A stretch of 44,479 nucleotides of DNA from an uncultured Psychrobacter sp. (GTDB lineage: Bacteria > Pseudomonadota > Gammaproteobacteria > Pseudomonadales > Moraxellaceae), in contig CAJXUF010000003.1 in NCBI GenBank assembly GCA_913061175.1, positions 1 to 44,479 on the forward strand, given 5' to 3'. The notes beneath the pieces were generated by a model. It was not told the origin of the DNA, made no database searches, and was given only the letters and a program-made list of their open reading frames with translations. Below are positions 7,691 to 44,479 of the stretch, piece after piece; position 1 is the stretch's first letter, and each line of letters begins with the position of its first letter. A program made the position numbers and the translations under genes.

Positions 7691-9466
7691 TTAATCATAA
7701 TTATAGTTTTTATTAATTAGTAAAGGTGTATTTTCAAGCTCAACGCCTCTTCTAGTCGTTCTTCCACTTTCGCTAATAAGATGAAGGTTTTGTTTAGCTC
7801 TTGAACAAATTACATATAACAGTTTTCTTGAGACTTCTAGTTCATTCACACTTCTCGACATGATTTCGTTCCAATGTGGTATATAACCTCTCAATAATCC
7901 GAAAGCAATTACTGTTTCAAACTCCTCTCCTTTGATACCAACACATGTGTTGATAACAACTCCTCTTCTTTCTTTATATAGATTTTTGAAAGATACAATA
8001 TCACTTGGAACATCGTAATTAGTGTCAGCAAATCGTCGATTTATATTTTCAAAATATACATTCCGACTTTCTTCGATAGTTTTAAAATTATTGATATTCA
8101 GTCCCAGTTCAACCAGAAATTTATCAAAGCACTCATGGAGATAAGGTATTGCTTCAGTTTCATATGAAGAAATAGAGTTAACTAGGCGTAAAATATTACG
8201 TTCAGAATTATGTGGTTCCACAAAAATATTACCGGTATGCTCATAGTATTTATCCATTAGTTCTCTAGCCCACTGATACCTTAAAGCATAAATATTAGGG
8301 CTAGGCTCTGTCAGAAACAGGCGAGACAATTTATACCAAAAATTATCTTTGTTCTTTGACATAGGCACAATTCCAGATGCATCAAAATTAATATTTGGTA
8401 GTATTGTTTGTAATTGCCTAGCTATAATTGTAATAAGCCACCATTGTGGAACTAATATACATATCTCATTTTCAGGAATATTCTTATCAATATTATCTTG
8501 TATTAATCTAGCTACTTCTGTTACTAAGTTATCTTTATGGATCGTATTGTTATACGTAATAACCCCCTGTACATTTGCCTTAACGCCAGTAGCAATAATT
8601 GGAATACCAATGCTTTGAAAACTATGATAAAAGTCAATAATTCTTTGTGTTGATCTAAAGTTTCCAGTTAATGGTAAATTCTTTACTTCTTCCCCATTTA
8701 GTTCGGTTTCAATCTCCTTCTTACTTTTGGCAACTCCTCCAAAGCTGTGATAAATTGCTTGATCCACATCTCCAGCCAAAAACAAGGAAGTAGCACCATC
8801 ACTTGCGTTAACAATAGAACAAAGTATCGCGTATGACAAATCCTGTGTATCCTGATATTCATCCACACATATTAAATGTAATAGCTTTGATAATACTTTA
8901 GAAATTTCTGGATAATCCTTAAGTAACTTAAACGAGTAATAAAGCAAAATATCAAAATCTATAAGTTTTTGTCTCTTCAATTCCGTATGATAATCTGTTA
9001 ACAATCTTATTTTTAGCGCGTCAGATTCTGCAAAACTTCCATCTCTTTCAAAACGTGTATTAATGTTATCGAAAGAATTTAATTGATGGATACCTTTTAA
9101 ATCGTTCAATAACGATGATGTAAAAGATTCATCAGCAATTATATAACCATTTTGAAGATCAGTTAAGTAGCAAGAATATGGTTTTATAATCCATTCTAAA
9201 CAGAAAGAATGCAAAGTACCTGACCAAACTTTTTTACTGTCTATACCCATACGTTCTAATCGTTTGAATATCTCTTCGGATGCTCGAACAGTAAAGGTAA
9301 CAGCAATAGCTTTTTTCTTACTTGTATCGTCTAATTGACTAACTTCATATGCTAACTTATGAATAATCGTTTTAGTTTTGCCACTGCCAGGGCAAGCAGA
9401 TAGTAAAACGTGACCTTCTTCTCTAACAGCTCTGATTTGTTCGGGGGTGAGATTATTAAAAATCAT
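7691..9466 (-). CDS. UvrD/PcrA-like superfamily 1 helicase, GajB-like (candidate Gabija)
   Basis: NLTPEQIRAVREEGHVLLSACPGSGKTKTI (Q motif and Walker A), CVDEYQDTQDL (Walker B), LTGNFRSTQRI (motif IV-like); overlaps the OLD nuclease gene by ~11 bp. Confidence 0.88.
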   Translation of the reverse strand: MIFNNLTPEQIRAVREEGHVLLSACPGSGKTKTIIHKLAYEVSQLDDTSKKKAIAVTFTVRASEEIFKRLERMGIDSKKVWSGTLHSFCLEWIIKPYSCYLTDLQNGYIIADESFTSSLLNDLKGIHQLNSFDNINTRFERDGSFAESDALKIRLLTDYHTELKRQKLIDFDILLYYSFKLLKDYPEISKVLSKLLHLICVDEYQDTQDLSYAILCSIVNASDGATSLFLAGDVDQAIYHSFGGVAKSKKEIETELNGEEVKNLPLTGNFRSTQRIIDFYHSFQSIGIPIIATGVKANVQGVITYNNTIHKDNLVTEVARLIQDNIDKNIPENEICILVPQWWLITIIARQLQTILPNINFDASGIVPMSKNKDNFWYKLSRLFLTEPSPNIYALRYQWARELMDKYYEHTGNIFVEPHNSERNILRLVNSISSYETEAIPYLHECFDKFLVELGLNINNFKTIEESRNVYFENINRRFADTNYDVPSDIVSFKNLYKERRGVVINTCVGIKGEEFETVIAFGLLRGYIPHWNEIMSRSVNELEVSRKLLYVICSRAKQNLHLISESGRTTRRGVELENTPLLINKNYNYD

Positions 9467-11624
9467 ATAAACTTAACAACTTTGTCAATGGATCTTCTGG
9501 TAGTTCATTCTGATAATTACTCATAAAAAACTCTTCATCATTTTGCAGTTCTTCACGCCAATCCCATTCATCACTATATTCCAACTCTCCTCCATCCACA
9601 AAGTCTTGATGGGTTAGCTCATAACGGGTATTTAATCTATATTCTGCTGATTTCACTTTGGAAGCCAAATCTAAATGAGGTGATGCCCAAGCAATCGCTT
9701 TTAAAATATACTCAGGTATATTCACATACTCATTTACCTGTTCTGCGACTGCGATAGCAAACCAACCTTTACCTGCTTTTTTAGCCAGTCTTAGCACCTC
9801 TGTACCTTGAATTTCTATATCATTACTTTCAAGTTTCTCTTTTGAGGATTCCATCGCCGTTAAAGACGTTTCTTCGTAAATTTCACTTAAGACTGGTACA
9901 AAGATATTGCTATTTTCATCGCTAATTAAATCTACTTCAAAAGTGTGTTTAGCATAGAAAGTTTTAATACAATCATTTTCACTACAAAACTCTTCAAGCT
10001 TTTCTCTTCTTTCTTGACCGCTTTTTTGCGAGTTTTTAGCTTTAGTTTGACCTGTAGTATGAGTAGAATCTGGGTTAGAAGGGAGCTGAATAAATGCCTC
10101 ATCTAAATCTGTAAGAATAGCGCATCTTCGATTCACTCTTTGCTGATGATATATATTGGCAATGTTCTCAAAACTTGTACTTCCAACGTTGATAACACTG
10201 ACTCCAATCTCATCCAAAGATAAACCAAATACTTTTTGAAATATTACTGGAAGTAAAATTTGTTCCGCATCCCCTTCAACTAGTACTACACCTTTAGCAA
10301 ATAGCAGATCACTTCTAACAGCGTCTAAATAACGCTCAATCCTCTTTATTTTATTAACCTCTAATCCATTTGTGGGGTTAAACACTACTGAACCGTTGCC
10401 TAAACGACTAAGAATATTGATACTACTAATCTTACTTACAGAAGATATCTGCGTGGAGTGGGTAGAGATGAATATTTGTGGCTTATGTTCATGTCTACCT
10501 AAGTTATCGAAAAGCGTCTTTTGAATATGAGTGTGTATATGAGCTTCAGGCTCTTCTATTAGTAGCAAATTAGCTACTTTATCTGTTTTTATTTTTTCAT
10601 ATTCATATAGTTTTAGAGAAAGGAAGATGAGATTAGCACCACCTAGACTCAACTCTGACAATCTACCTACATGTTCGTTATCTGAATCACCTACCCATAA
10701 TTTCAAAGACTGTAATAGCTTATCCATTTCATTAGGTAGTTCAGCTCTTACTTCTATATTGGGAGCATAAGTTGTACCAACTGCTTGTTTTAAGCTACTA
10801 TCAATTCCCTTTTGCACAGTAGATACTTCCTCAAGCTTTGAAATGTTTTCATTGAGTTCATTTATACTATTAACTAAATCTGACTGAATACCTATTTCTA
10901 CTTTTTTATCCTTACCTCTCAATAAACCAACCAATGGATTTTTCGAGTAAGAGCGTAAATCACTACTTACATCACGTAATGCTTTAATAAAAGTACAAGA
11001 TATTTCGTCGTATAAATTTAGTTCTCTAGGTAAATAAACACCATAAATTTGTGTTCCAGCTTGATTAGGATCTGGGAATATAATTTCTTCAAAATTACCA
11101 ACGTACTGATCATAAAAATCATCTTCACTACATTGTGCTGACCCCTTACATAGATAAACTGTTTCATAATCATCAATGGTTATTTTATCTAACAATACTT
11201 GTAATCCATCTTTATTTTTATCCACCTCTCGAGAGTAGTCATAAATTTCCTGTCTAACATGACGCTTAGGACGAAAGCAAAGCGTATAGCTTCCTTGAGT
11301 TTGATTTCGTTCGTTACTATTACTTACATCTCCACAAGCATGAATACTAAGCGCTTGAGTAGCATCATCGAAACCTAGTGCTTCGAAATTTAAAGTTAGT
11401 ATTATCCAATGCCCTCTCCAATCAGATAACTGTCTGCTAAAATCGTTTTCAGTAAGTTTAAGGTATCGAGGTAGTGTATCGTCTAACATTAGTCTAAGTG
11501 CATAGAACAAATTAGTCTTGCCTGAGCCATTTTCACCTATTATTGTATTTACTCCTTCGGAAAAATTTAATTGAGCAGATTCGAAGTTTCGAAAATTTCT
11601 AATGAAAAATTTTGATATATGCAC
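9456..11624 (-). CDS. OLD-family ATP-dependent endonuclease (AAA ATPase plus TOPRIM), GajA-like (candidate Gabija)
   Basis: FRNFESAQLNFSEGVNTIIGENGSGKTNLFYALRLML; LLIEEPEAHIHTHIQ; FISTHSTQISS; TOPRIM VVLVEGDAEQILLPVIF ... AILTDLDEAF. Confidence 0.9.
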   Translation of the reverse strand: MHISKFFIRNFRNFESAQLNFSEGVNTIIGENGSGKTNLFYALRLMLDDTLPRYLKLTENDFSRQLSDWRGHWIILTLNFEALGFDDATQALSIHACGDVSNSNERNQTQGSYTLCFRPKRHVRQEIYDYSREVDKNKDGLQVLLDKITIDDYETVYLCKGSAQCSEDDFYDQYVGNFEEIIFPDPNQAGTQIYGVYLPRELNLYDEISCTFIKALRDVSSDLRSYSKNPLVGLLRGKDKKVEIGIQSDLVNSINELNENISKLEEVSTVQKGIDSSLKQAVGTTYAPNIEVRAELPNEMDKLLQSLKLWVGDSDNEHVGRLSELSLGGANLIFLSLKLYEYEKIKTDKVANLLLIEEPEAHIHTHIQKTLFDNLGRHEHKPQIFISTHSTQISSVSKISSINILSRLGNGSVVFNPTNGLEVNKIKRIERYLDAVRSDLLFAKGVVLVEGDAEQILLPVIFQKVFGLSLDEIGVSVINVGSTSFENIANIYHQQRVNRRCAILTDLDEAFIQLPSNPDSTHTTGQTKAKNSQKSGQERREKLEEFCSENDCIKTFYAKHTFEVDLISDENSNIFVPVLSEIYEETSLTAMESSKEKLESNDIEIQGTEVLRLAKKAGKGWFAIAVAEQVNEYVNIPEYILKAIAWASPHLDLASKVKSAEYRLNTRYELTHQDFVDGGELEYSDEWDWREELQNDEEFFMSNYQNELPEDPLTKLLSLYDF

Positions 11625-12143: not shown

Positions 12144-15100
12144 CTAATCATAGTCGTCAAATATTTTATTTAAGCGATTGAGACTATTAACGATTAGCTT
12201 GCCTGATTGATCGGTGCTGGTATCAATCGCCAGCTTCTCATCCATCCGCATCGTCAATGGCTCTAATGCTTGCTTGAGGGCAGTTGCCATCAGTGCCGTT
12301 TGCTGATGAATATTAGGGATATCGCTATCGGCTGTTTGATTATCATTATTGCTAACCAAGCTATCCGCCATTTTTTGCGCCAGTTGTTCAACGGCCTCAA
12401 CCAGCTGTACCATCAGTGCTTTTTGCACCTCTTGGTTTTGCTTGAGATACTCGCCTTCTGCCTTTCCAGCATTGTGATCGTGCTTATATATTTGCAGCAA
12501 TTGGCTCACGCTTTTTTCAAAGCCATTATCGATACTGTCGCTGACGACTTTGGCATTGTTAATGACGCTATCGGCGAGGATTTTCTGTGCTTCTAATTGG
12601 GCGTTTAGCTGGGCATCGAGTTGCGCTTGTTGTCCTGCTTCTCGTAAGCGAGCGATTTGCTCTGGGTCGTTTTTCGTTAAGTATGTCTCAAACTGGCTAC
12701 TGATGGCATTGAAGCCACTGGCCAAATCGACCAACTGCGCGACGATACGCGCGCCCGTATCACCATCTTCACCGCCCATGGCTTTGTTACGTAAGAAGTC
12801 GGCTTTGATTTGCGCCCAACGCTCTGTTTCTGCTTCGGTCAAGACACCACGCATCTCGCCAAGCTTGAGCAAGTTGCTCTCTGCGCCTTGGGTCAATAGC
12901 TGCGACTCGCCCAGATAATGATCATCTATCAGCTGGTTTAGCTCTTCTTCATTCATGACCGCCGATAGCTTTTCGGTCATCTTGTTCATATTACGATAAC
13001 TGCCTTGCAGCTTAAATATCGGCTCAACACGATACTTATCATCTTGCGAGGCGGAAGCAATATAGGCTTGGTTGACATCCAAAATGACTTCTTGCACCCT
13101 AAACATATGGCGCAAGATGGCGATAATCTCATTAACTTCTGAAGTGCTATACGGATACGTTAGGTCGCTGCTTTGTGCTTGGGCAAGATTCGCATTGTCT
13201 GTTTTTGCCATTTTAATCAAACGATGCACATCGCTTAAGTCACGGTTGGCCATTGGTGCGAGGACAGTATTAGAGGTCAGCGAGTTTTCAATATAACTGA
13301 GTGCAAACACCTCTTCCATGCCGCTCATGATATCGCCTAAGTTGTAGATATCGGCACGGTTGGCAAGCATATCAGGGACTTTGAAGGCTTCGCCGCTTTC
13401 GGTATATGGGTTACCTGCCATGACCACGCAGAACTTTTTGCCACGCATGTCATAAGTCTTGGTCTTGCCTTGCCAGACGCCATCGATACGGCGTGTACCA
13501 TCGCCCAATGAGATAAACTTTTGCAAAAATTCTGCATGGGTATGCTGAATATCATCGAGATAAAGCATGACGTTATTGCCCATCTCAAAGGCCAAGTTGA
13601 TTTTATTCAACTCTTCTCGTGCGGTGGCATTGGGCGCTTTTTCGGGGTCTAATGAGGTGACGTCATGACCGAGTGACGGACAGTTAATCTTCATAAAGAT
13701 AAGGCCAAGACGATTTGCCACGTATTCCATCAAGGTGGTTTTACCATACCCTGGTGGCGATATCATCATGAGGATACCCATCAAATCGGTACGCTTATCC
13801 TCGCCGACCGTGCCCATCTGTTTGGCAAGATTGTCACCGATAAGTGGCAGATAGCTCTCGTTAATCAGACGGTTACGCACAAATGAGGACAATGGACGCG
13901 GCATAAATTCGTCCAGTCGCAACGTCTCTTTTGAGTCATGCAATATCTCTGAGCGCATGGCCAGATAACGTCTATAGGCAGGGATAACTTGGGTATCATG
14001 ATGATGCAAACGATTTAAGAAATCATCGACGGCAAAGGTTAAGGTCTGCTGATGAATACGTATATGCTCACCCAGCAGGTTATTGACTTGTATCTCAAGT
14101 GATACCTTACCCGTGCTACGTTCAAAACTTTGCACTTGATTGAGCGGATTATTAATACTGGTCAATGATGTAGTCGATGACGTAGCCGACGAGGTGATTG
14201 AGGAAAATGACAAGGCCGATGGTGTGCCACTTGCGCCTGTACTGTTTAAACCTTGATTGCCCAATCCTTTAGCACTTAGCCCTTTATTAAAAGCCCCTTT
14301 ATTAAAGGTAGCACCTGAATCAATGAGTCGTTGCACCAAAGCTTCACGCTGGGCATCATTTAATTGGGTAAGCAAGACGGCAATGGCTTCTGGCACATAA
14401 TGACGGCCGCTCTCTAGCTGTTGCTTGCGTAGCGCTTCTTTTTCTTTACTCTCAGCAAGCTCCTCTTCACTGAGTGCCTCACCTGCTTCATTGGTGCCAT
14501 CAGTCGCTACGTTAACCGACTCTGTCCCACCATAAGTCTTATCAAGTAGTGCATGAAACCATGTGGCCAATAGCTCATAGGCTGATTTGGGTTGGAATCC
14601 AAGCTTACTGATAGAAGACTGTAGTTGATCAAAACTGGCCGTATTTTGCGTGCTGCCTGAGGCACTATTCAATGTTTGGCTTAACTGCTCACACAACTGC
14701 TGCGCTTGTTGACTGGTTTGCCATTTTATTGTGTTATATGCACCTGCACTTGATTCCGCCGACTGCCCCATGACGCTCACCAAATATTCACTGGCCAGTT
14801 GGACATAGCTTGGTTTGAATATGTTGGCGTTATGAGTATCACTGGTATTTGAATCTGGTTCTGAATGCTTGCTAGCACCGTTATCAGCGCTAAGACTGTC
14901 GTCATTATGAGCCATAACAAAATGACGCATCACTTGGCTCATGTCCTCGACCAATAGAGACTTCGCAGTATCGCTACCCAATGCACGGCGCAGTTGCTCG
15001 GCGGTCGCAGCTCTATCTGTCCAGTTGCTCGCGCGCGTCAGCACGGACTCATTTAACCAAGCGTCATAACCAAATTGACGTAAACTATCTAAACCAAGCG

Positions 15101-18100
15101 CTTGTACAATATTTAGCTGCCAATAAAACAACTGCGCTAACGCACGTACTTGCGGGGTATAAATCAGTAGCCCTGCCTCGCGCAATGTCGGCAGAATTTG
15201 CATCAATAATAGCGTGGCATCATGGTCATGAATGCCTTTGTCATATCCAAGCTGATAACGAGGGGTGGCGTAAGCTTTGACCAGTTTGGACAACGGGCTG
15301 TCATTATCAATATCGCCATTAACATCTAGGGTAATGATGGTCGCATCGTATGCTTGATATAGACGTTCTTCTGTTAGGCCATCTTGGCTGTTTTTGGCAC
15401 TTTCAATAATGCTATAGGCCAAGTACTCGGCGCGGTACACCTTGTCAGACTCGGAGGCGATATTCATATCCCAGTACGGGCGCAAGGCGTTTAGCTCAGT
15501 GTTATTAAGCACTTCATAATAGTCGGTGCCCGTTAGATGCAAGTTCAGCACACGCTTGCCATCTGACTGTTGACGGCTCAATAAGGTCAAATCTAATGGC
15601 TGAGTATTGACTGAAAAGCGGTGCTTGCCCAGTTTGATGATTTGACCACCATCTTCAAACAAGTCCGACTTGTCTTTTAGACTCTTATAGCTCTCGATTT
15701 GAATGGCTTTTAGACGGGCGTCGATATCATCGGCTTTTACGCTAAAGCCCATCGCTTGCAGCTCTTTTGCGATGTTGCGGACTTTTTGCACCAGACCATC
15801 AGCAGCAAAGTAGGTATTGAGCGATTCCTCTTCTGTAAATCCCGTGACACCTGTGCTTTGCGTGCGTTTTTTAATACTCTCAAGCATTCGCAGCGCGCCA
15901 TCACCCAAGTTTTGCGCTTTACGGTTGCGAGCATCAAGCAGTTGCTGCTTATGGTTTTCAAAGGTTTCGTAAATCTCTTCACGTTTACTAATAATATCGG
16001 CTAAAAACTGATCGCCACTATTGGTCTCTGGATCAGCGAACTGACTTTCCAACTCTTCTAGCTGTACCAGCAATTTTGCCATTTGCTCATCTGATTTCTC
16101 AGGCGTATTGGCAATGGATAACGCATTGGCTATGGACTGACCAAACAGCTTAAACTGCGCCCCAAATTGCGCGACAGCCTCCGCTGAGCCTAAATCTTTG
16201 CGTTTATGATTGAGCTTGGCTTTGCTTTGATTCAGGCTGGCGTAAATGGTCGATATGTCATCGATAATTTGCGTGCGTACTGTGGCATCGGCCACATCTA
16301 ACGTCCCTAATAGCTCGGTCAATAAATCTAACCCTTGCGCTGTTTCATCAATTTTTTCTAGTACGGGTTTTAGCTCAGCATTGGTTTCTGCGGTGTTTAA
16401 GCGCTCACTGACATCGACCAATATGCCTTCGTAGCTTGATAGTGCCTCTTCACCACTTAAAAACAATACCGTTTTTTCAGCCAGCTCGCTTTCTGCCTCT
16501 TCTAATTGCTTTTGCAGCGCTTGTAACTTATCAGCATCTAGATAGCGCAAATCCTCCAAGCTAACCAAACGGCCTTTTTGGCGTCTTAATGCTGACAGCT
16601 GATCGACATAATCACTGGCAGACTCAAAGCTAGTAACGCGTATCTGCCGCAAAATCTCACTTTGCTGCGTGTCAGCATCGGCTAGCGCGGTTTGGGTTTG
16701 CTTTTGGATACTTTGTACTTTGGCGAATTCATCAATGACCAGCTCAGCCGTGGCCGTCACTTCTTTAATACTACTGGCGACTTCGCTTAGCTCAGGCTCA
16801 GACAACCAATAATAGCTGTCAAAGAGTCGGCTGGTATTATTGGTAAGCTCTTCATAAAGCTTCTGTGACACGCTTTGATTGTCAATCAGGCGAGTAATGC
16901 TATACAGGTCGGAGATACCGCGTACCAGTTCTTTATTACCAATTTTGCCATAGAAGCTCGTGCTTTCTGGCAGCTCACTGACATACTCATGCGAGGCGTA
17001 AGGCGTGTGCCATATCTGCATCGGGTGAATACGAGATGGCTCGCTTTGGTCACTAAACAGCACCAAACGGCCATTCTCAGCCAAAGCCATACCGTTACAA
17101 TAGATAGGATTTGCCAATTGCTTTTTAATCAAGTTATAAGGAAACAGCCCCGTGACGCCCAAGTCTCGGTCGTAAAATAAGAATAAAACATCTTCCCCAT
17201 TTGGCGATACAATTTTACGCTTAAACCGTAAGTCAGTAGCACCAACATTATTGGCCTCGAACAGCTTATACTCACCCGTCTGTAGATAATAACCACCCGG
17301 AAACATGATGCCGTGGTCTTCTGGCAGCTGAACACACGACTGTCCAATCGCATCCAAACGCAGCACCGCTTCGGTCAAGGTGTTATAAACAAAATAACGG
17401 TAGTCCTCTTCACGATAGGGCAATATCTTAAGCAGTATTAAACTGCCCACTTTGGCATACGCAATCTCAGCATCGGTCAGCGACTGGGTACGGTCATTGA
17501 CTGGTTCGCTATAAATACCTTGCCCTGACTGCGTATTATCCTCAATCTTAATGGTCAAATCACCACCGACCGTTTCCACAAATATCGTGTCTAAGATATT
17601 CATATGGGGATATTTACCATTCACCATTTGATCGCGTGTGGTCTCAATCCAGTCAAAATCATAAGCAGGCGGCAATTCAATGTCACGCTCGCCTCGATTG
17701 TCCACATAAGCGACTTGCGCCGACTCTGGTGTGCCTTGGCTAAAATCTAGCGCGAAACGGAACACTCGAATATCAGTGATACGCTCTCCAATCTGAAACG
17801 CCAATAGCAATTTGCTATCTTTCACCGTTATTTGAATTAAGCGCGTTTGCTTATAATATCGGTACAGCTCATTGAAGTCTTGGACAAAGGCATCTTGACC
17901 CAAAAAAGTGCCTGTTAAATCGACCTCTTGAAGTTGGTACTCTTCTTCACTTTCGACTGGCTCAATCAAACGATATAGCGACAATACATCCTTAACATTG
18001 CTTGCACGTTTGAGTCCCATAAAAACGTTGTAGCCAAACAGTAGATATTCGCCTACTTGCACCATATCCTGCGCCACACTGTTATGTTCGGTACGGATAC

Positions 18101-18323
18101 GCGTACGGGCGATGACTTGCACTTGAGTACTGCCGAACTCTTCAAGGCGTGCAGTATTTAGCGTGGCCGTCTGTTGCTCTAAACGAGCACCTTGTTCTGT
18201 CAAACGTTTTTTGATGAGCTCGTAAGCATTGCCCGAGGCAACCGCCTGATCAGTTTGGCTTGCTTGACTAGCATTAGGGTTGTCATTGCTATCTGGAGTG
18301 GTTAGGTTTTGCGTGTCCGCCAT
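12144..18323 (-). CDS. Large AAA+ 'DNA repair ATPase' family protein (DUF3686-like N-terminal part, coiled coils, C-terminal AAA)
   Basis: Likely start MADTQNLTTPDS at 18323 (2059 aa) rather than the ORF start at 18464. Walker A ISPPGYGKTTLMEYVANRLG; Walker B NNVMLYLDDIQH; N-terminal FLGQDAFVQDFNELYRYYKQTRLIQITVKDSKLLLAFQIGERITDIRVFRF. Confidence 0.75.
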   Translation of the reverse strand: MADTQNLTTPDSNDNPNASQASQTDQAVASGNAYELIKKRLTEQGARLEQQTATLNTARLEEFGSTQVQVIARTRIRTEHNSVAQDMVQVGEYLLFGYNVFMGLKRASNVKDVLSLYRLIEPVESEEEYQLQEVDLTGTFLGQDAFVQDFNELYRYYKQTRLIQITVKDSKLLLAFQIGERITDIRVFRFALDFSQGTPESAQVAYVDNRGERDIELPPAYDFDWIETTRDQMVNGKYPHMNILDTIFVETVGGDLTIKIEDNTQSGQGIYSEPVNDRTQSLTDAEIAYAKVGSLILLKILPYREEDYRYFVYNTLTEAVLRLDAIGQSCVQLPEDHGIMFPGGYYLQTGEYKLFEANNVGATDLRFKRKIVSPNGEDVLFLFYDRDLGVTGLFPYNLIKKQLANPIYCNGMALAENGRLVLFSDQSEPSRIHPMQIWHTPYASHEYVSELPESTSFYGKIGNKELVRGISDLYSITRLIDNQSVSQKLYEELTNNTSRLFDSYYWLSEPELSEVASSIKEVTATAELVIDEFAKVQSIQKQTQTALADADTQQSEILRQIRVTSFESASDYVDQLSALRRQKGRLVSLEDLRYLDADKLQALQKQLEEAESELAEKTVLFLSGEEALSSYEGILVDVSERLNTAETNAELKPVLEKIDETAQGLDLLTELLGTLDVADATVRTQIIDDISTIYASLNQSKAKLNHKRKDLGSAEAVAQFGAQFKLFGQSIANALSIANTPEKSDEQMAKLLVQLEELESQFADPETNSGDQFLADIISKREEIYETFENHKQQLLDARNRKAQNLGDGALRMLESIKKRTQSTGVTGFTEEESLNTYFAADGLVQKVRNIAKELQAMGFSVKADDIDARLKAIQIESYKSLKDKSDLFEDGGQIIKLGKHRFSVNTQPLDLTLLSRQQSDGKRVLNLHLTGTDYYEVLNNTELNALRPYWDMNIASESDKVYRAEYLAYSIIESAKNSQDGLTEERLYQAYDATIITLDVNGDIDNDSPLSKLVKAYATPRYQLGYDKGIHDHDATLLLMQILPTLREAGLLIYTPQVRALAQLFYWQLNIVQALGLDSLRQFGYDAWLNESVLTRASNWTDRAATAEQLRRALGSDTAKSLLVEDMSQVMRHFVMAHNDDSLSADNGASKHSEPDSNTSDTHNANIFKPSYVQLASEYLVSVMGQSAESSAGAYNTIKWQTSQQAQQLCEQLSQTLNSASGSTQNTASFDQLQSSISKLGFQPKSAYELLATWFHALLDKTYGGTESVNVATDGTNEAGEALSEEELAESKEKEALRKQQLESGRHYVPEAIAVLLTQLNDAQREALVQRLIDSGATFNKGAFNKGLSAKGLGNQGLNSTGASGTPSALSFSSITSSATSSTTSLTSINNPLNQVQSFERSTGKVSLEIQVNNLLGEHIRIHQQTLTFAVDDFLNRLHHHDTQVIPAYRRYLAMRSEILHDSKETLRLDEFMPRPLSSFVRNRLINESYLPLIGDNLAKQMGTVGEDKRTDLMGILMMISPPGYGKTTLMEYVANRLGLIFMKINCPSLGHDVTSLDPEKAPNATAREELNKINLAFEMGNNVMLYLDDIQHTHAEFLQKFISLGDGTRRIDGVWQGKTKTYDMRGKKFCVVMAGNPYTESGEAFKVPDMLANRADIYNLGDIMSGMEEVFALSYIENSLTSNTVLAPMANRDLSDVHRLIKMAKTDNANLAQAQSSDLTYPYSTSEVNEIIAILRHMFRVQEVILDVNQAYIASASQDDKYRVEPIFKLQGSYRNMNKMTEKLSAVMNEEELNQLIDDHYLGESQLLTQGAESNLLKLGEMRGVLTEAETERWAQIKADFLRNKAMGGEDGDTGARIVAQLVDLASGFNAISSQFETYLTKNDPEQIARLREAGQQAQLDAQLNAQLEAQKILADSVINNAKVVSDSIDNGFEKSVSQLLQIYKHDHNAGKAEGEYLKQNQEVQKALMVQLVEAVEQLAQKMADSLVSNNDNQTADSDIPNIHQQTALMATALKQALEPLTMRMDEKLAIDTSTDQSGKLIVNSLNRLNKIFDDYD

Positions 18324-18571
18324 CGTTGCTCGTCCGTTTCTGTTTTTACATGTGGGGCAGTGATTAGTTGTGCATAGGGATAGTGAAGAAGATGTGCCCT
18401 TATTATCAACCACTAAGCCAATGATATCAAGGGTTAAGCATATTTGGCGGCGCTGGTTATGCACGAATACATTATGAGCAGGAATGAGAGATATTGATAT
18501 GATTGCGGTGTTTAATTGTGCATATATGAGGATAGTTTGATAGGCGTTTAAACGATGTTTAAATAGTGATT

Positions 18572-20500: not shown

Positions 20501-20522
20501 CTCATAATTGGGAGAAATGCAC

Positions 20523-22508
20523 ATGAGTGTTGAAATTAAATCCTATTACACAGCTAAAGAGATCGCAGATATGCGATTAAAGTCATTGCCTACGTTCCAT
20601 CGCAATGTGCGAACTACAGCTGAAAAAGAAAACTGGGTGTCTCGAAAAAGGTCGGGTCGCGGTGGCGGTTTGGAATATGCGTTTGATAGTTTACCCGCTG
20701 ACGCACAAGCAGAAATCAAAGCAAAGGCTTATAAGGCATTGATGCCCAAGCAATCGACAAAGGCGCAACGTGATATCGCGGTGATCGCTAACCGTAGTAT
20801 CGACACACTAGACAGTGACCAACGTGCGACTGCTGATGCTCGTTTGAGAATGACCTTACTGGTCGATCAATACGAAGTGTCTGCTGGTAATCGCACTGCT
20901 GCTATCAAGCTGGTGTCTGAGATGAGTCGTGATTTGGCGCTACCCGTTGATGAGTCAACTGACTACAACACTGTATGTGCAACGGCTTTGGCTAAGACTC
21001 GCGGTAAGGCTGGCGTCGGTGTGCGCAGGTTGCATCAATGGTGCCTAGATGCGGCGAAGTGTGAGACGCCAACCGAGCGACTGCTGGCACTTGCCCCACA
21101 AAAGCAAGGACAGCCTGTGATTAAGCCGACGCGTATGGAGTGGCTGCCTGATTTTATGGCTGTCTATCGCAATACCAATGGTGTCGGCATGGCTGAGGCG
21201 TATCGTACGTTTGCATTATCCTACGGCGCTAAGCATGGTGCGGACGCTGTCCCTCACTATGATGCCGTACGTCGCGCACTCGATAAAATGCCTAAGTTTA
21301 TCCGTGAAGCTGGTCGCTTGACTGGCGCGAAGATGAAAGCGCTTAAGACTTATCAGAAGCGCGACTGGTCAACGCTGGTCAATAACGATGTTTGGACAGG
21401 CGATGGTCATAGTCTAAAAATGAAGGTGCGTCATTACGAGCATGGACAACCGACTACACCTGAGGTGACGCTTATCATGGATACAGCAAGTCGCTATATC
21501 GTTGGCTGGTCACTTGCTTATTCAGAGAGTCATATTGCCGTTGGTGATGCGCTGCGTCACGCCATGATTAATCACGGTATACCTGCAATCTACTACTCAG
21601 ATAATGGCGGTGGTCAAAAGAACAAAGTGTTTGATACAGATTTATATGGAATATTTGCCCGCCTAGGCGTGCATCACGAAACAGGCATACCAGGCAATCC
21701 GCAGGGTCGCGGCATCATTGAACGTGTCATGAAAACTCTAGCCCATAGGATTGCAAGGCAGTTTGAAACGTATCACGGCCCTAATGTTGATAGCGACACG
21801 CATCGCAGAATCAGTACCGCAACGGCAAGTCTTGCCAAAGCTGAAGCTGAGGGACGCGAAGTGCTAACGCCTAAGCAAAAATGGGCTAAGGGCAAATTAC
21901 CAGACTGGAACCAATTGCTTGATGTGATCGAAGCAGCTGTGCACTGGTACAACACGGAGCATAAGCATAGCGCCATCGGTAATGTAACCCCAGCGGCGAT
22001 GCGTCAGCACATCATGAATCAAATGGATGCGGCCGACATTATTCCGCTGACTGAAGTAGAAGCCCGCGATATGTTTCGTCCTCACGCTACTCGTGTGGTG
22101 CAACGTGCATGGCTGACAGTCTATAACAACGAGTATTGGCACAAGGCGCTTGAGGTTTGGGATGGTAAGTCGGTTGTGGCTTATCTCGACCAGCATGACG
22201 CTAGCAGCATCATCGTGCGTGATGAGGATGGTAACTATATCTGTGATGCGATTCTAGATGGCAACAAAAAGGCTGCGTTTAGTGAAACGGTTGTCGAACG
22301 TAGTAAACGTCAACGTACTGAGCGTCGCATTAAGAAACTGGATGAGGAACGCGCCAAGGCTGAAGCTGAGCTACGTCCAACTATTGAGTACGAAAAAGCG
22401 CAGACGTTGCATGAGCTGATGCCGACGACTGTGACACCAGAAGCTAAAACCGAATATTTTATGTTTCTCACAGATGCTGAAGACACTAATAACAAACAAG
22501 CTAAATAA
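20523..22508 (+). CDS. Mu A-like DDE transposase
   Basis: N-terminal MuA-type HTH; DDE motifs NNDVWTGDGHSLK, YYSDNGGGQKN, GRGIIERVMKTLAHRIARQFETYHG. Confidence 0.95.
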   Translation: MSVEIKSYYTAKEIADMRLKSLPTFHRNVRTTAEKENWVSRKRSGRGGGLEYAFDSLPADAQAEIKAKAYKALMPKQSTKAQRDIAVIANRSIDTLDSDQRATADARLRMTLLVDQYEVSAGNRTAAIKLVSEMSRDLALPVDESTDYNTVCATALAKTRGKAGVGVRRLHQWCLDAAKCETPTERLLALAPQKQGQPVIKPTRMEWLPDFMAVYRNTNGVGMAEAYRTFALSYGAKHGADAVPHYDAVRRALDKMPKFIREAGRLTGAKMKALKTYQKRDWSTLVNNDVWTGDGHSLKMKVRHYEHGQPTTPEVTLIMDTASRYIVGWSLAYSESHIAVGDALRHAMINHGIPAIYYSDNGGGQKNKVFDTDLYGIFARLGVHHETGIPGNPQGRGIIERVMKTLAHRIARQFETYHGPNVDSDTHRRISTATASLAKAEAEGREVLTPKQKWAKGKLPDWNQLLDVIEAAVHWYNTEHKHSAIGNVTPAAMRQHIMNQMDAADIIPLTEVEARDMFRPHATRVVQRAWLTVYNNEYWHKALEVWDGKSVVAYLDQHDASSIIVRDEDGNYICDAILDGNKKAAFSETVVERSKRQRTERRIKKLDEERAKAEAELRPTIEYEKAQTLHELMPTTVTPEAKTEYFMFLTDAEDTNNKQAK

Positions 22509-22523
22509 ATAAGGATATTAATC

Positions 22524-23399
22524 ATGAGTATCGAACTATTAAAAGCGCATATCGAAGCCACTGGCATGAGTCAAAAGCAGGTCGGCTCGCAGCTTGGCTA
22601 CTCTGCCTCAGTCATCAATCAGTACCTTAAAGGGACTTATGGCGGCGACGTTAAAAGCATTGATAAGGCGGTTGCCGAGCTGACACAACGCCAAGAGAGC
22701 AAATCGACTGACGTGTCGAGTGAGTTTATCGCTACGCCAACCGCCAAACGCACGCTTGAAAGCTGTGGTTTTGCTCACGCCATGAACGATATGCAGCTGG
22801 TCATCGGTGATGCTGGGCTGGGTAAGACGATGGCGCTCAAAGAGTATGCCGCGCGTCATAGCAATGTGGTGATGTTAGAGGTTGATCCGACCTTCAGCGC
22901 GAAAGTGCTACTTGCTGAACTCTGCAACTTACTGGGCGTGACAACTGGACGCAACAACAACGCCATGATGACGGCTGTGATCGAAAAGCTAAAAGGCTCT
23001 GATCGCTTGCTCATCGTCGATGAGGCTGAGCTGCTGACGCTGAACTCGCTTGAGATATTGCGCCGCATCCATGACAAAGCTGGTATCGGTATCGTACTCG
23101 CTGGTATGCCGCGCCTACGTGCCAACCTGCGCGGTGCGCGTGGGCAATACAAGCAAATCTACAGCCGTATCGGTATGGTGCATGATCTCAAAATGCGCCT
23201 ACCTGCTACTGATATCGCGATGTTTTGCGAGGCTGCGCTGGGTACAGATGCGTTTAATGAGCGTTTAGAGAAAGTATCAGGCGGTAATGCTCGTCGTTTA
23301 AATAAGTTGCTGCGCGGTATCAATCGCCTAGCTGTCATTAACAAAGCGCCCGTCACGGTAGAGATGATTGATCGTTTTGCCGACATGTTGATTGACTAA
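22524..23399 (+). CDS. Mu B-like transposition ATPase
   Basis: N-terminal HTH plus VIGDAGLGKTMALKEYAA (Walker A), RLLIVDEAELL (Walker B). Confidence 0.93.
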   Translation: MSIELLKAHIEATGMSQKQVGSQLGYSASVINQYLKGTYGGDVKSIDKAVAELTQRQESKSTDVSSEFIATPTAKRTLESCGFAHAMNDMQLVIGDAGLGKTMALKEYAARHSNVVMLEVDPTFSAKVLLAELCNLLGVTTGRNNNAMMTAVIEKLKGSDRLLIVDEAELLTLNSLEILRRIHDKAGIGIVLAGMPRLRANLRGARGQYKQIYSRIGMVHDLKMRLPATDIAMFCEAALGTDAFNERLEKVSGGNARRLNKLLRGINRLAVINKAPVTVEMIDRFADMLID

Positions 23400-39342: not shown

Positions 39343-40332
39343 ATGCCTTTATCTAACGACAGTCAGTATGGCGTAGTGCCAATGACCGAGGCAATTAACA
39401 AGCTGCCTGCCAATCCTACCATTATCCGCGAGCTTGGCTTGTTTAAGCCGCAGTACGAAAGCACAACGTCTATCGCTGTGGAATCCAAAAACGGTGTGCT
39501 GACGCTAGTCAATGCTGTGCCACGCGGTACGCCTGGTGAGCCTGTAAAAACCAATCTTGGCAATCGTCAAGTCTTTGAGATGTTGCATCTACCTAAGAAC
39601 GATATTGTCCGCGCTGATGATGTACAAAATGTGCGAGCTTTTGGCAGTGGTAACAAAGCGCAAACGGTCGCTGAAAAGGTCAATGACAAACTCGCTGATA
39701 TGAAGTCCGACATCGAATATACCCGCGAGCATCTAATGCTTGGCGCATTGTCAGGCAAAATTTTGAACGCTAACGGCGACCCAATTGTTGATATCTATGA
39801 TCGCTTTGGGATCACTCGCCAAACCATCAATTGGAATTTATCGGCCACCAACGGCAACGTTGGATCAATGATTGACAGTGCCGTGCGTAATTTAAGCAAA
39901 AAGCGTGGCGGCGAGCCAGTCAATGGTTGGATCGTGCTTTGTTCACCAGAGTTTATGGATGCGGTTATTTATCACAAGACTGTTACTGCGATCTATGAGC
40001 GCTACCAAGAAGGTTCTGCCTATCGTAGCGGCGATACTAGCGTCGGTTTTGAGCATAAGAAATTGAAGTTTATCAACTACGATCATGTGTTTGACTCTGG
40101 TCTGCAAATCAAAGAAGGCGAAGCAATTATCTTACCTGCTGGTACCAAGAACACGTTTAAAGAGTTCTTTGCCCCTGCGGATATGTCGTCCACGGTCAAC
40201 ACCAAGGCGCTACCGTACTACGCCAGTCGTGAAAAGCTGGACCATGACAAAGGCTGGAGTCTTGAGGCGCAATCTAATCCATTGCCGTTGCTGCTGCGTC
40301 CTGAGCTGGTTGCCACGCTGAAGATGACCTAA
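39343..40332 (+). CDS. Major capsid protein (lambda gpE-like)
   Basis: MTEAINKLPANPTIIRELGLFKPQYESTTSIAVESKNGVLTLVNAVPRGTPGEP...VQNVRAFG...DIEYTREHLMLGALSGKI. Confidence 0.93.
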   Translation: MPLSNDSQYGVVPMTEAINKLPANPTIIRELGLFKPQYESTTSIAVESKNGVLTLVNAVPRGTPGEPVKTNLGNRQVFEMLHLPKNDIVRADDVQNVRAFGSGNKAQTVAEKVNDKLADMKSDIEYTREHLMLGALSGKILNANGDPIVDIYDRFGITRQTINWNLSATNGNVGSMIDSAVRNLSKKRGGEPVNGWIVLCSPEFMDAVIYHKTVTAIYERYQEGSAYRSGDTSVGFEHKKLKFINYDHVFDSGLQIKEGEAIILPAGTKNTFKEFFAPADMSSTVNTKALPYYASREKLDHDKGWSLEAQSNPLPLLLRPELVATLKMT

Positions 40333-40340
40333 TAGGTTCG

Positions 40341-40374
40341 ACCTTGACTGGCTACGGCTGGTCAAGGTGTTTTA
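40341..40374 (+). terminator. Possible weak terminator/hairpin after capsid gene
   Basis: ACCTTGACTGGCTACGGCTGGTCAAGGTGTTTTA. Confidence 0.45.
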
Positions 40375-40399
40375 CCCAAATTCTAACTAGGACAAAATC

Positions 40400-40624
40400 A
40401 TGAGTGATGATAAACCAAAAGTGAAAGGCTATCGCCAGCTAACAGATGCTGAGATTGCTGCTATCAATAAAGTCAAAGCTAAGGCTGAAGAAGTTGGTGA
40501 GTTGGTTTCGCAGCTACAGATGTCTAATGGTTTAGACCAACGCGCAATCAATATCGGTAAAACTGAGTTGCAAACTGGCTTTATGTGGTTAACGCGCGGT
40601 ATCGCCCAGCCTGATAGTTTTTAG
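40400..40624 (+). CDS. Acb2-like (DUF7681-type) cyclic-nucleotide sponge, candidate anti-CBASS protein
   Basis: YRQLTDAEIAAINKVKAKAEEVGELVSQLQMSNGLDQRAINIGKTELQTGFMWLTRGIAQPDSF; small size, helical layout and terminal IGKTxLQxGxMxLTRxxAxPxxF signature. Confidence 0.75.
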   Translation: MSDDKPKVKGYRQLTDAEIAAINKVKAKAEEVGELVSQLQMSNGLDQRAINIGKTELQTGFMWLTRGIAQPDSF

Positions 40625-40632
40625 GACTAGCC

Positions 40633-41064
40633 ATGATAACCCAACAAGATTTAATCGACCGCTTTGGCGAAAAAGAGCTTATCAAGCTGACTGATAGGGA
40701 CAATTATCAGGTCATTGTTGAGTCTGTCGTTGATACGGCTATCGCTGATGCTGAGGGTGAGGTTGCCTCATATTTGCGATCAGCCAATCTGGTTAGTATT
40801 GATGCGCTGGGCAAAGTTATCTACCGCAATGGCGCAAAACTGCCATCTGATCTAGCACTGCATACTTGTAATATCGCTCGTTATTATCTGTATGGCAACG
40901 GCACAACCGAAACGGTCGAAAAACGTTATGACGATGCGATTAAGTGGCTCGATAAGGTCAAAAAAGACCCAACGATGCTGACTGGCCCTGTCGCTGAGCA
41001 GCCCAATGCTAGCGGTGGTATCAGCGTCATACCTAACATCGTTCCTAGTATCTATCAGGACTGA
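40633..41064 (+). CDS. Mu gp36-like head-tail connector (DUF1320)
   Basis: MITQQDLIDRFGEKELIKLTDRD ... VVDTAIADAEGEVASYLR ... LALHTCNIARYYLYG. Confidence 0.9.
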   Translation: MITQQDLIDRFGEKELIKLTDRDNYQVIVESVVDTAIADAEGEVASYLRSANLVSIDALGKVIYRNGAKLPSDLALHTCNIARYYLYGNGTTETVEKRYDDAIKWLDKVKKDPTMLTGPVAEQPNASGGISVIPNIVPSIYQD

Positions 41065-42931: not shown

Positions 42932-42969
42932 AAAGAGCAGTAGACAAATTTTGTTTACTGCTCTTTTTT
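42932..42969 (+). terminator. Strong intrinsic terminator upstream of moron
   Basis: AAAGAGCAGTAGACAAATTTTGTTTACTGCTCTTTTTT. Confidence 0.9.
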
Positions 42970-43022
42970 CGTATATGATGCTATTTTTCAAATTGATTAA
43001 TTTATAAGGTATTGGAGGTGTT

Positions 43023-43772
43023 ATGACTAGTTTGGTTTGTCCTCATTGCGATTCCGCGTTTGATTCAGATAAACGTCTAGCAAGAGCTGATGTGACAGAG
43101 TGCAAGCTCTGCCAGCAGAAATTTGTAGTAACACAAAGTACTTTGAAATCCTATAAAAAAGCGATGCCAGAAAAAACAACTTCACCATCCATGCCGCATT
43201 CAATAGAAAAACCATCTAAAATAAACTGCCCTCACTGTTCAGCAGGGCTAGAAGGACAAATGTCAACTGGTCAGATTGTTGAATGCTCTCAATGTCATAA
43301 ACAGTTTGAAGCGACACCTGAGCGTTTGAATAACACGACTCCTGTACTTGCTAAAGCAGATATATCACCTAATGAGGTGGTAAGTCGAAAATCTAAGTCC
43401 AAGTTAGGTATGTTGGCGCTTATTTTTCTAGCTTTGGTAGTGATTTTCCCCTTTATTGTGCCTGATAGCAATCCTGTTGGTGCTGATACAGATACCACTG
43501 CTGCGAAAACTACCATAGACCCTAACGCACCTGAGAACTTTTTTAGTGGTTGGAACGGTTCAAACAAAGAGCTCGTGGATTTAGTTAAATCTACCATGAA
43601 TGATCCTGATTCTTTTGAGCATGTGGAGACACGTTTTAGTGACAAAGGTAATAGCTTAAGCATACTAATGACATATAGAGGTAAAAATGGATTTAACGCT
43701 ACTATTACCAATAGCGTGTCAGCAGACTTAAATAAAGCTACAAGACAATTAAGCAACTTACAACAACGTTGA
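43023..43772 (+). CDS. Double zinc-ribbon, single-TM protein with C-terminal domain; candidate moron
   Basis: CPHC...CKLC and CPHC...CSQC ribbons; TM LGMLALIFLALVVIFPFIV; RBS GGAGGTGTT-ATG; flanked by terminators. Confidence 0.75.
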   Translation: MTSLVCPHCDSAFDSDKRLARADVTECKLCQQKFVVTQSTLKSYKKAMPEKTTSPSMPHSIEKPSKINCPHCSAGLEGQMSTGQIVECSQCHKQFEATPERLNNTTPVLAKADISPNEVVSRKSKSKLGMLALIFLALVVIFPFIVPDSNPVGADTDTTAAKTTIDPNAPENFFSGWNGSNKELVDLVKSTMNDPDSFEHVETRFSDKGNSLSILMTYRGKNGFNATITNSVSADLNKATRQLSNLQQR

Positions 43773-43779
43773 GCGCTAA

Positions 43780-43828
43780 CTACCTGAACTGCATCATCTA
43801 ACCACAAATCGCTCAAACCACCACAATA
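43780..43828 (+). promoter_or_regulatory. Candidate late promoter, copy 3 (upstream of tape measure)
   Basis: CTACCTGAACTGCATCATCTAACCA-N14-CACCACAATA; CACAAT at the same offset as CATAAT in copies 1 and 2. Confidence 0.55.
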
Positions 43829-43854
43829 ACCCTATCATTCGATGGGGTTTTTTT
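43829..43854 (+). terminator. Intrinsic terminator between copy 3 and tape measure start
   Basis: ACCCTATC-ATTC-GATGGGGT plus TTTTTTT (one G-U pair). Confidence 0.7.
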
Positions 43855-44432
43855 GTGGCTCAGACATTTGAAACAGAACTGCTAATCAAGGCTGGTGTCC
43901 AAGGGTTGGAGACCATCGCAAAGCTTGCTGCTGAAATTGAAGCTGCGGGCCTTGACGTCTCTAAACTTAGCGAAGAAGGCCTGGCACTCAATAAAACCTT
44001 TAACGAGATTGAGCAAAAACAAGGCCTGATCGATTTATTCCGCACGCAAAAATTAGCTGTGGTGGAAGCATCGGCCGCTTGGCAAGAAGCGCAAGAAAGC
44101 ACTAAGACGTTAGCACAAGAGTGGCAAGCCGCTACTGCTAATGCTGAGTCCCTAAAAGCAGCAATGGAAGCGTCCGATGAAGTCACCAAGGCTCAAAAAG
44201 ACGAATACAAAGCGGCCGCCAAGGAAGTCGAAAACTACGCAAAAGCACACGCCCAATCTGCTACTGAAGCGGCAAAGCTCAAAGATGAACACACGTCGCT
44301 AAATACCGAGCTGGGCGCTACACGTCAAGCGATGGCAGACACAGGTCTGTCAACGACTGATCTGGCTGCTCAATCTGTCGAACTGCAAGAGCAAAGTGCT
44401 GCCGCGACTGAGTCCCTTGCAGAGCTTAATGC
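43855..44432 (+). CDS. Tape measure protein, N-terminal part only (GTG start; truncated at contig end)
   Basis: AQTFETELLIKAGVQGLETIAKLAAEIEAAGLDVSKLSEEG... Long alpha-helical start. The apparent stop at 44477 lies in adapter sequence. Confidence 0.8.
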
Positions 44433-44479
44433 CTGTCTCTTATACACATCTGACGCTGCCGACGATATGCAGTGTGTAG
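44433..44479 (+). other. Nextera/Tn5 library adapter (artefact)
   Basis: CTGTCTCTTATACACATCTGACGCTGCCGACGA + TATGCAGT + GTGTAG: mosaic end, read-1 adapter, i5 index, start of P5. Confidence 0.98.

Follow-up and report, generated by a model that had tools for sequence, protein, structure and literature searches.

Acb2 proteins are phage sponges that bind cyclic di- and trinucleotides and in this way keep CBASS effectors off; they have been reported to be active in lysogenic induction, not in maintenance (PMC12043709). They were discovered in the podophage group of PaMx41 and PaMx33 (reviewed in PMC12043709 and PMC10419184), and not in transposable phages, as a sequence-only reading of the present DNA had stated. 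In the T4 homologue, the Y8A mutation disrupted dinucleotide binding, and the escape change F82C, affecting a residue that stacks on the ligand, reduced it (PMC12657218); the affinity of T68M, a change from a Panoptes-resistant phage, is described as lowered (PMC12657230). Tad1 (Thoeris anti-defence 1) belongs to the same Pfam hairpin family and shares the principle of a hexameric sponge, but has an antiparallel beta-sheet at its N-terminus (PMC12043709).

The stretch of Psychrobacter DNA analysed here (the window, 44,479 nt) contains a prophage which is Mu-like, as had been proposed, since homologues of transposase A, transposition protein B, GemA, the Mu portal and Mu F are present, as is Gp36. 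An open reading frame of 74 aa starting with ATG was found exactly where the sequence-only reading had placed it, with the C-terminal end INIGKTELQTGFMWLTRGIAQPDSF as quoted there, and Pfam matched both of its neighbours, the major capsid and gp36-like genes. The coordinates of this and other features are given in Table 1; the AGG of the likely ribosome-binding site is retained in seven relatives. Our preferred interpretation, to which we assign a probability of roughly 85%, is that the product is a short Acb2, the helical hairpin of which would form a hexamer that holds cyclic di- and trinucleotides and keeps the CBASS effectors of Psychrobacter off.

Table 1. Features of the acb2 locus and its surroundings, and a CBASS operon of the genus (positions are those of the window unless another locus is named)
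Feature	Position	Strand	Evidence or remark
GajB	7691-9466	-	PADLOC, E 7e-216
GajA	9456-11624	-	PADLOC, E 1e-270
Transposase A	20508-22508		Mu-like prophage gene
Transposition protein B	22524-23399		Mu-like prophage gene
Major capsid protein E (Phage_cap_E), left neighbour of acb2	39343-40332	+	Pfam, 5.5e-83
Hairpin of 12 pairs with a 4-nt loop, 3' of the capsid gene; bounds the exchanged acb2 cassette on the left	40341-40368	+	Folding, relatives
AGGA, 7 nt 5' of the acb2 ATG; likely ribosome-binding site	40389-40392	+	Sequence
acb2; encodes a short-hairpin member of the Acb2 family, 74 aa, tryptophan class W63	40400-40624	+	PF24729, PDB, Foldseek
Mu Gp36-like head-tail adaptor, right neighbour of acb2	40633-41064	+	Pfam, 1.2e-26
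CBASS operon: cyclase, E1-E2, JAB, NucC	L177, 4770-8650		Genome G019, P. aquimaris-like

The profile search that had been proposed as a check was positive: the 74-aa protein matched the Pfam family Acb2_Tad1_hairpin (PF24729) along the entire profile (positions 1-58 of 58) with 61.6 bits, the cut-off being 27 bits, and an E value of 8e-17, which places the match far beyond chance. Searched as a single sequence against the PDB, it retrieved p26 of phage PaP2 (5e-10) and T4 Vs.4 (0.006); with a profile of 29 relatives these values became 6e-32 and 1e-20, and the next match stood at 0.05. The p26 protein is itself an Acb2, in agreement with that of PaMx33 over the N-terminal 36 residues compared. 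The AlphaFold2 monomer model (43 sequences, mean pLDDT 88) predicts the hairpin of two helices that had been anticipated, at residues 16-41 and 47-69, and thus reproduces the layout of the Acb2 protomer, a short N-terminal element followed by two long antiparallel helices; the short N-terminal helix of that protomer is absent from the model. A structural comparison, suggested earlier as a check, placed crystal structures of Acb2 first: with the monomer model, ranks 1-9 of the Foldseek search against the PDB were all Acb2 and Vs.4 chains, with a probability of 1.00. Significant sequence and fold matches in the PDB were thus confined to Acb2/Vs.4, which supports the Acb2 interpretation, and we regard the protein as a clear member of this known family. 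NCBIfam gave nothing above its cut-off and PADLOC had no model that matched the protein. Tad1 membership was considered and rejected, as the model contains no beta-domain or strand and no Tad1 chain appears among the listed sequence or structure matches.

The comparison with the described proteins extends to individual residues. With the Acb2 of PaMx33 and PaP2 (p26; PDB 8H2J, 8H2X, 8IXZ) the window protein shares, besides the helical hairpin fold and the full-length profile match, the GYR motif, N23, K26, R48, T55, R66, A69 and the QPDSF end. With T4 Vs.4 (T4 Acb2, PDB 7UQ2) it has the family and fold in common at ~27% identity in the alignment; T4 Y8 and T68 correspond to Y11 and T55 here, whereas T4 F82 corresponds to A69, a site that is alanine in 114 of 118 distinct homologues. 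As mutation of the T4 equivalents of Y11 and T55 harms binding or function, their retention argues for an Acb2. The putative ligand residues Y11, K26 and T55 are all present; Y11 and K26 are also the positions at which dinucleotide-site mutants of PaMx33 Acb2 have been published, with the same numbering. Near-invariant positions in the 118 homologues are G10, Y11, R12, L14, N23, K26, R48, Q58, G60, M62, R66, A69, P71 and F74, every one of which is found in the window protein; the agreement of K26, R48, M62, R66, P71 and F74 with nearly all homologues adds to the support.

The turn at the tip of the hairpin is 19 residues shorter than in PaMx33 Acb2, and could alter the assembly of the protein. 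The tips of the homologues are between 1 residue shorter and 43 residues longer than that of the window protein. The description of the protein as a diverged Acb2 needs correction, as it is no outlier: 73 of the 118 homologues have exactly its length, the commonest in this sample, which was collected partly with short queries. A testable expectation for Acb2 in general is that assembly and binding should persist in forms with a short tip. A search of a phage protein collection returned 230 records, and among the matches listed most are annotated as hypothetical. A 74-aa hypothetical protein of Acinetobacter phage Ac42 is 57% identical to the window protein, and has the same length and motif pattern; it and the other homologues from phage records lie in other genome contexts, outside the capsid-gp36 slot.

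The hairpin that had been noticed beside acb2 is real (-20.4 kcal/mol, z -4.6), and all of its pairs are intact in seven relatives, in which the changes are one-sided only. It is followed by a weak T run (GTTTTA), and was not among the listings of a terminator scan of the window. The hairpin marks a step in the identity between related prophages. In a P. aquimaris relative (L036), the DNA of acb2 is 92.9% identical to that of the window, as against 71.8% for the capsid gene and 65.3% for gp36. The reverse is seen in L005, where acb2 is 72.9% identical, as against 91.2% for the capsid gene, 93.3% for gp36 and 96.9% for the gene after it. An acb2 allele may therefore be 93% identical where its neighbours are 59-72% identical, and 73% where they are 91-97% identical; the step lies at the hairpin on the left, and near the start of gp36 on the right. 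All near relatives have acb2 between the capsid and gp36 genes, whereas the distant relatives L028-L031, in which the genes are ordered alike, have no acb2, only ~19-28 nt separating the capsid and gp36 matches. An accessory slot, as first suspected, is thus empty in distant relatives and carries swapped alleles in near ones, so that the sponge allele moves separately from the head genes. The acb2 gene is an exchange cassette of Psychrobacter Mu-like phages, extending from the hairpin 3' of the capsid gene to gp36. In one relative (L002, 3831-3959, + strand) an open reading frame of 42 aa (MEPIKCKTGKLKPLKHNGIKSEAIGILAVTILAITVVAINSK), the second half of which is hydrophobic, is inserted between the capsid hairpin and acb2.

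These data also bear on whether the product could be a small protein of the head or connector with no more than a resemblance to Acb2. The constant position between the capsid and gp36 genes in all near relatives would suit such a protein, but relatives of the same gene order manage without the gene, its alleles do not track the head genes, its homologues in other phages adjoin unrelated genes, and its fold and sequence match Acb2 only; we regard this explanation as scarcely credible. A structural role in the head was accordingly rejected, on the absence of the gene from same-order relatives and the independence of its alleles. It is also very improbable that the gene is a decayed or ligand-free relic of acb2. 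T4-like phages on which Panoptes exerts pressure do carry loss-of-function acb2 alleles (PMC12657218, PMC12657230), and in L022 the C-terminal frame of acb2 is disrupted; there, the capsid gene is broken as well, and a sequencing error may be the cause. Against decay of the window copy stand its strongly conserved positions, all intact, and its differences from L036, which are nearly all silent: ~16 nucleotides but only 2 amino acids, from which purifying selection on the frame follows. This selection, together with the exchange of the gene as a unit, supports the Acb2 interpretation. In the draft genome that contains L022 and L034 (G059), the frame is lost in the capsid gene as well as at the C-terminus of acb2, and the disruption may represent either decay or a sequencing error.

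A putative counter-defence sponge thus sits in the late head operon of a group of Psychrobacter Mu-like phages, where its gene is exchanged as a block, independently of the head genes. The acb2 of PaMx33 and PaP2, in comparison, is a podophage gene that adjoins a large structural gene. By analogy with the PaP2/PaMx33 structures, the hairpin of the window protein would assemble into a hexamer, and the hexamer would capture cyclic di- and trinucleotides. The sponge would presumably be made together with the late head proteins, and the CBASS effectors of the Psychrobacter host would stay off during infection by, or induction of, the Mu-like phage. As the alleles are exchanged from the hairpin behind the capsid gene to the region of the gp36 start, the sponge would change and the head genes stay untouched. 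As phages without acb2 can evade CBASS by capsid mutation (review, PMC10419184), one may speculate that the place of acb2 directly behind the capsid gene matters. This idea is speculative because homologues elsewhere adjoin many kinds of genes: in a PHROGs scan of the nearest neighbours of ~70 homologues, carried out without a baseline, portal, terminase, protease and head genes recurred, and so did genes of DNA metabolism, so that we claim no general association of acb2 with capsid genes.

The 118 homologues obey an almost strict rule at sites 49 and 63. Exactly one tryptophan occupies one of these two sites in 117 of them (W49 alone in 90, W63 alone in 27); the remaining sequence has neither (F49), and none has both. 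Sequences with W63 mostly have A, C, N or S at site 49, and those with W49 mostly have A or S at site 63. The window allele belongs to the W63 class, as does T4 Vs.4, unlike the PaMx33/PaP2 proteins and the swapped alleles of L005 and L025, which have W49. In the model a single predicted helix contains both sites, which are separated by 14 residues (~21 Å); at this distance a direct contact would be made between protomers, or else via a shared pocket. The strict exchange thus predicts a contact or a pocket that can be checked in existing crystal structures. As a count the rule is strong, but it is uncertain how often the tryptophan has switched independently: a quick tree placed eight changes, with the poor branch support of such a short protein, only one independent pair lies on well-supported branches, and by mutual information the 49-63 pair ranks only 13th (z 3.8). 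No description of the rule was found in the literature searched, the original Acb2 papers lying outside its scope, and it may already be known. A further idea, which we consider rather unlikely, is that W49 and W63 represent two functional states of the Acb2 assembly or its pocket that differ in the range of ligands held. By exchanging the acb2 cassette at the fixed site next to the hairpin, Psychrobacter Mu-like phages would then pass from one state to the other, and their head module would carry a replaceable sponge that fits the types of CBASS or Panoptes met locally.

With two CD-NTase profiles, matches were found in 21 of 105 Psychrobacter genomes. In one of these (G147) the cyclase is accompanied by E1-E2, JAB and a phospholipase, as in phospholipase-type CBASS; another (G019) is a lysogen in which a NucC-type CBASS and a related acb2 prophage are found in a single genome, with acb2 locus coordinates as on contig NZ_JABASR010000007.1 of P. 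aquimaris DSM 16329. Phospholipase CBASS usually employs 3',3'-cGAMP and NucC CBASS cA3, the two kinds of ligand of Acb2. The occurrence of these operons in the genus supports the Acb2 interpretation. The same profiles found no CD-NTase in the window's own genome, a draft that is ~90% complete; in the SAVED search of this genome the control was without a match anywhere. Together with the short tip and the lack of a PADLOC or NCBIfam match, the absence of a CD-NTase match counts against an Acb2 directed at CBASS. This absence would be accommodated if the sponge served mainly another signal, such as the cA3 of type III CRISPR, the gcADPR of Thoeris or a different cyclic nucleotide, instead of CBASS products. 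Broad sponges do exist, as Tad1 of the same hairpin family binds both gcADPR and CBASS nucleotides, and cA3 is common to CBASS and type III CRISPR (PMC12043709). We nevertheless judge such a specialization improbable, given that the residues linked to cyclic dinucleotide binding in T4 Acb2 are retained, that roughly one in five genomes of the genus has CBASS, as does the lysogen G019, and that the Tad1 beta-domain is absent from the model.

Other features of the window lie outside the acb2 slot. A complete Gabija defence pair (7691-11624, - strand; PADLOC) lies upstream of the prophage. The gene between the two (12144-18464, - strand) encodes a protein of 2106 aa in which DUF3686 and AAA domains were recognized, and for which PADLOC gave no match. 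The end of the contig (44433-44479) consists of a Nextera adapter (CTGTCTCTTATACACATCTGACGCTGCCGACGA) and index-like bases, so that the last codons of the 3'-open frame at 43855-44478 are an artefact. Among the tail genes, a gene for a 249-aa zinc-ribbon-like protein (43023-43772, + strand) is flanked by two terminator-like hairpins (42932-42966 and 43828-43849), and the region 42932-43849 (+ strand) is probably another accessory slot.
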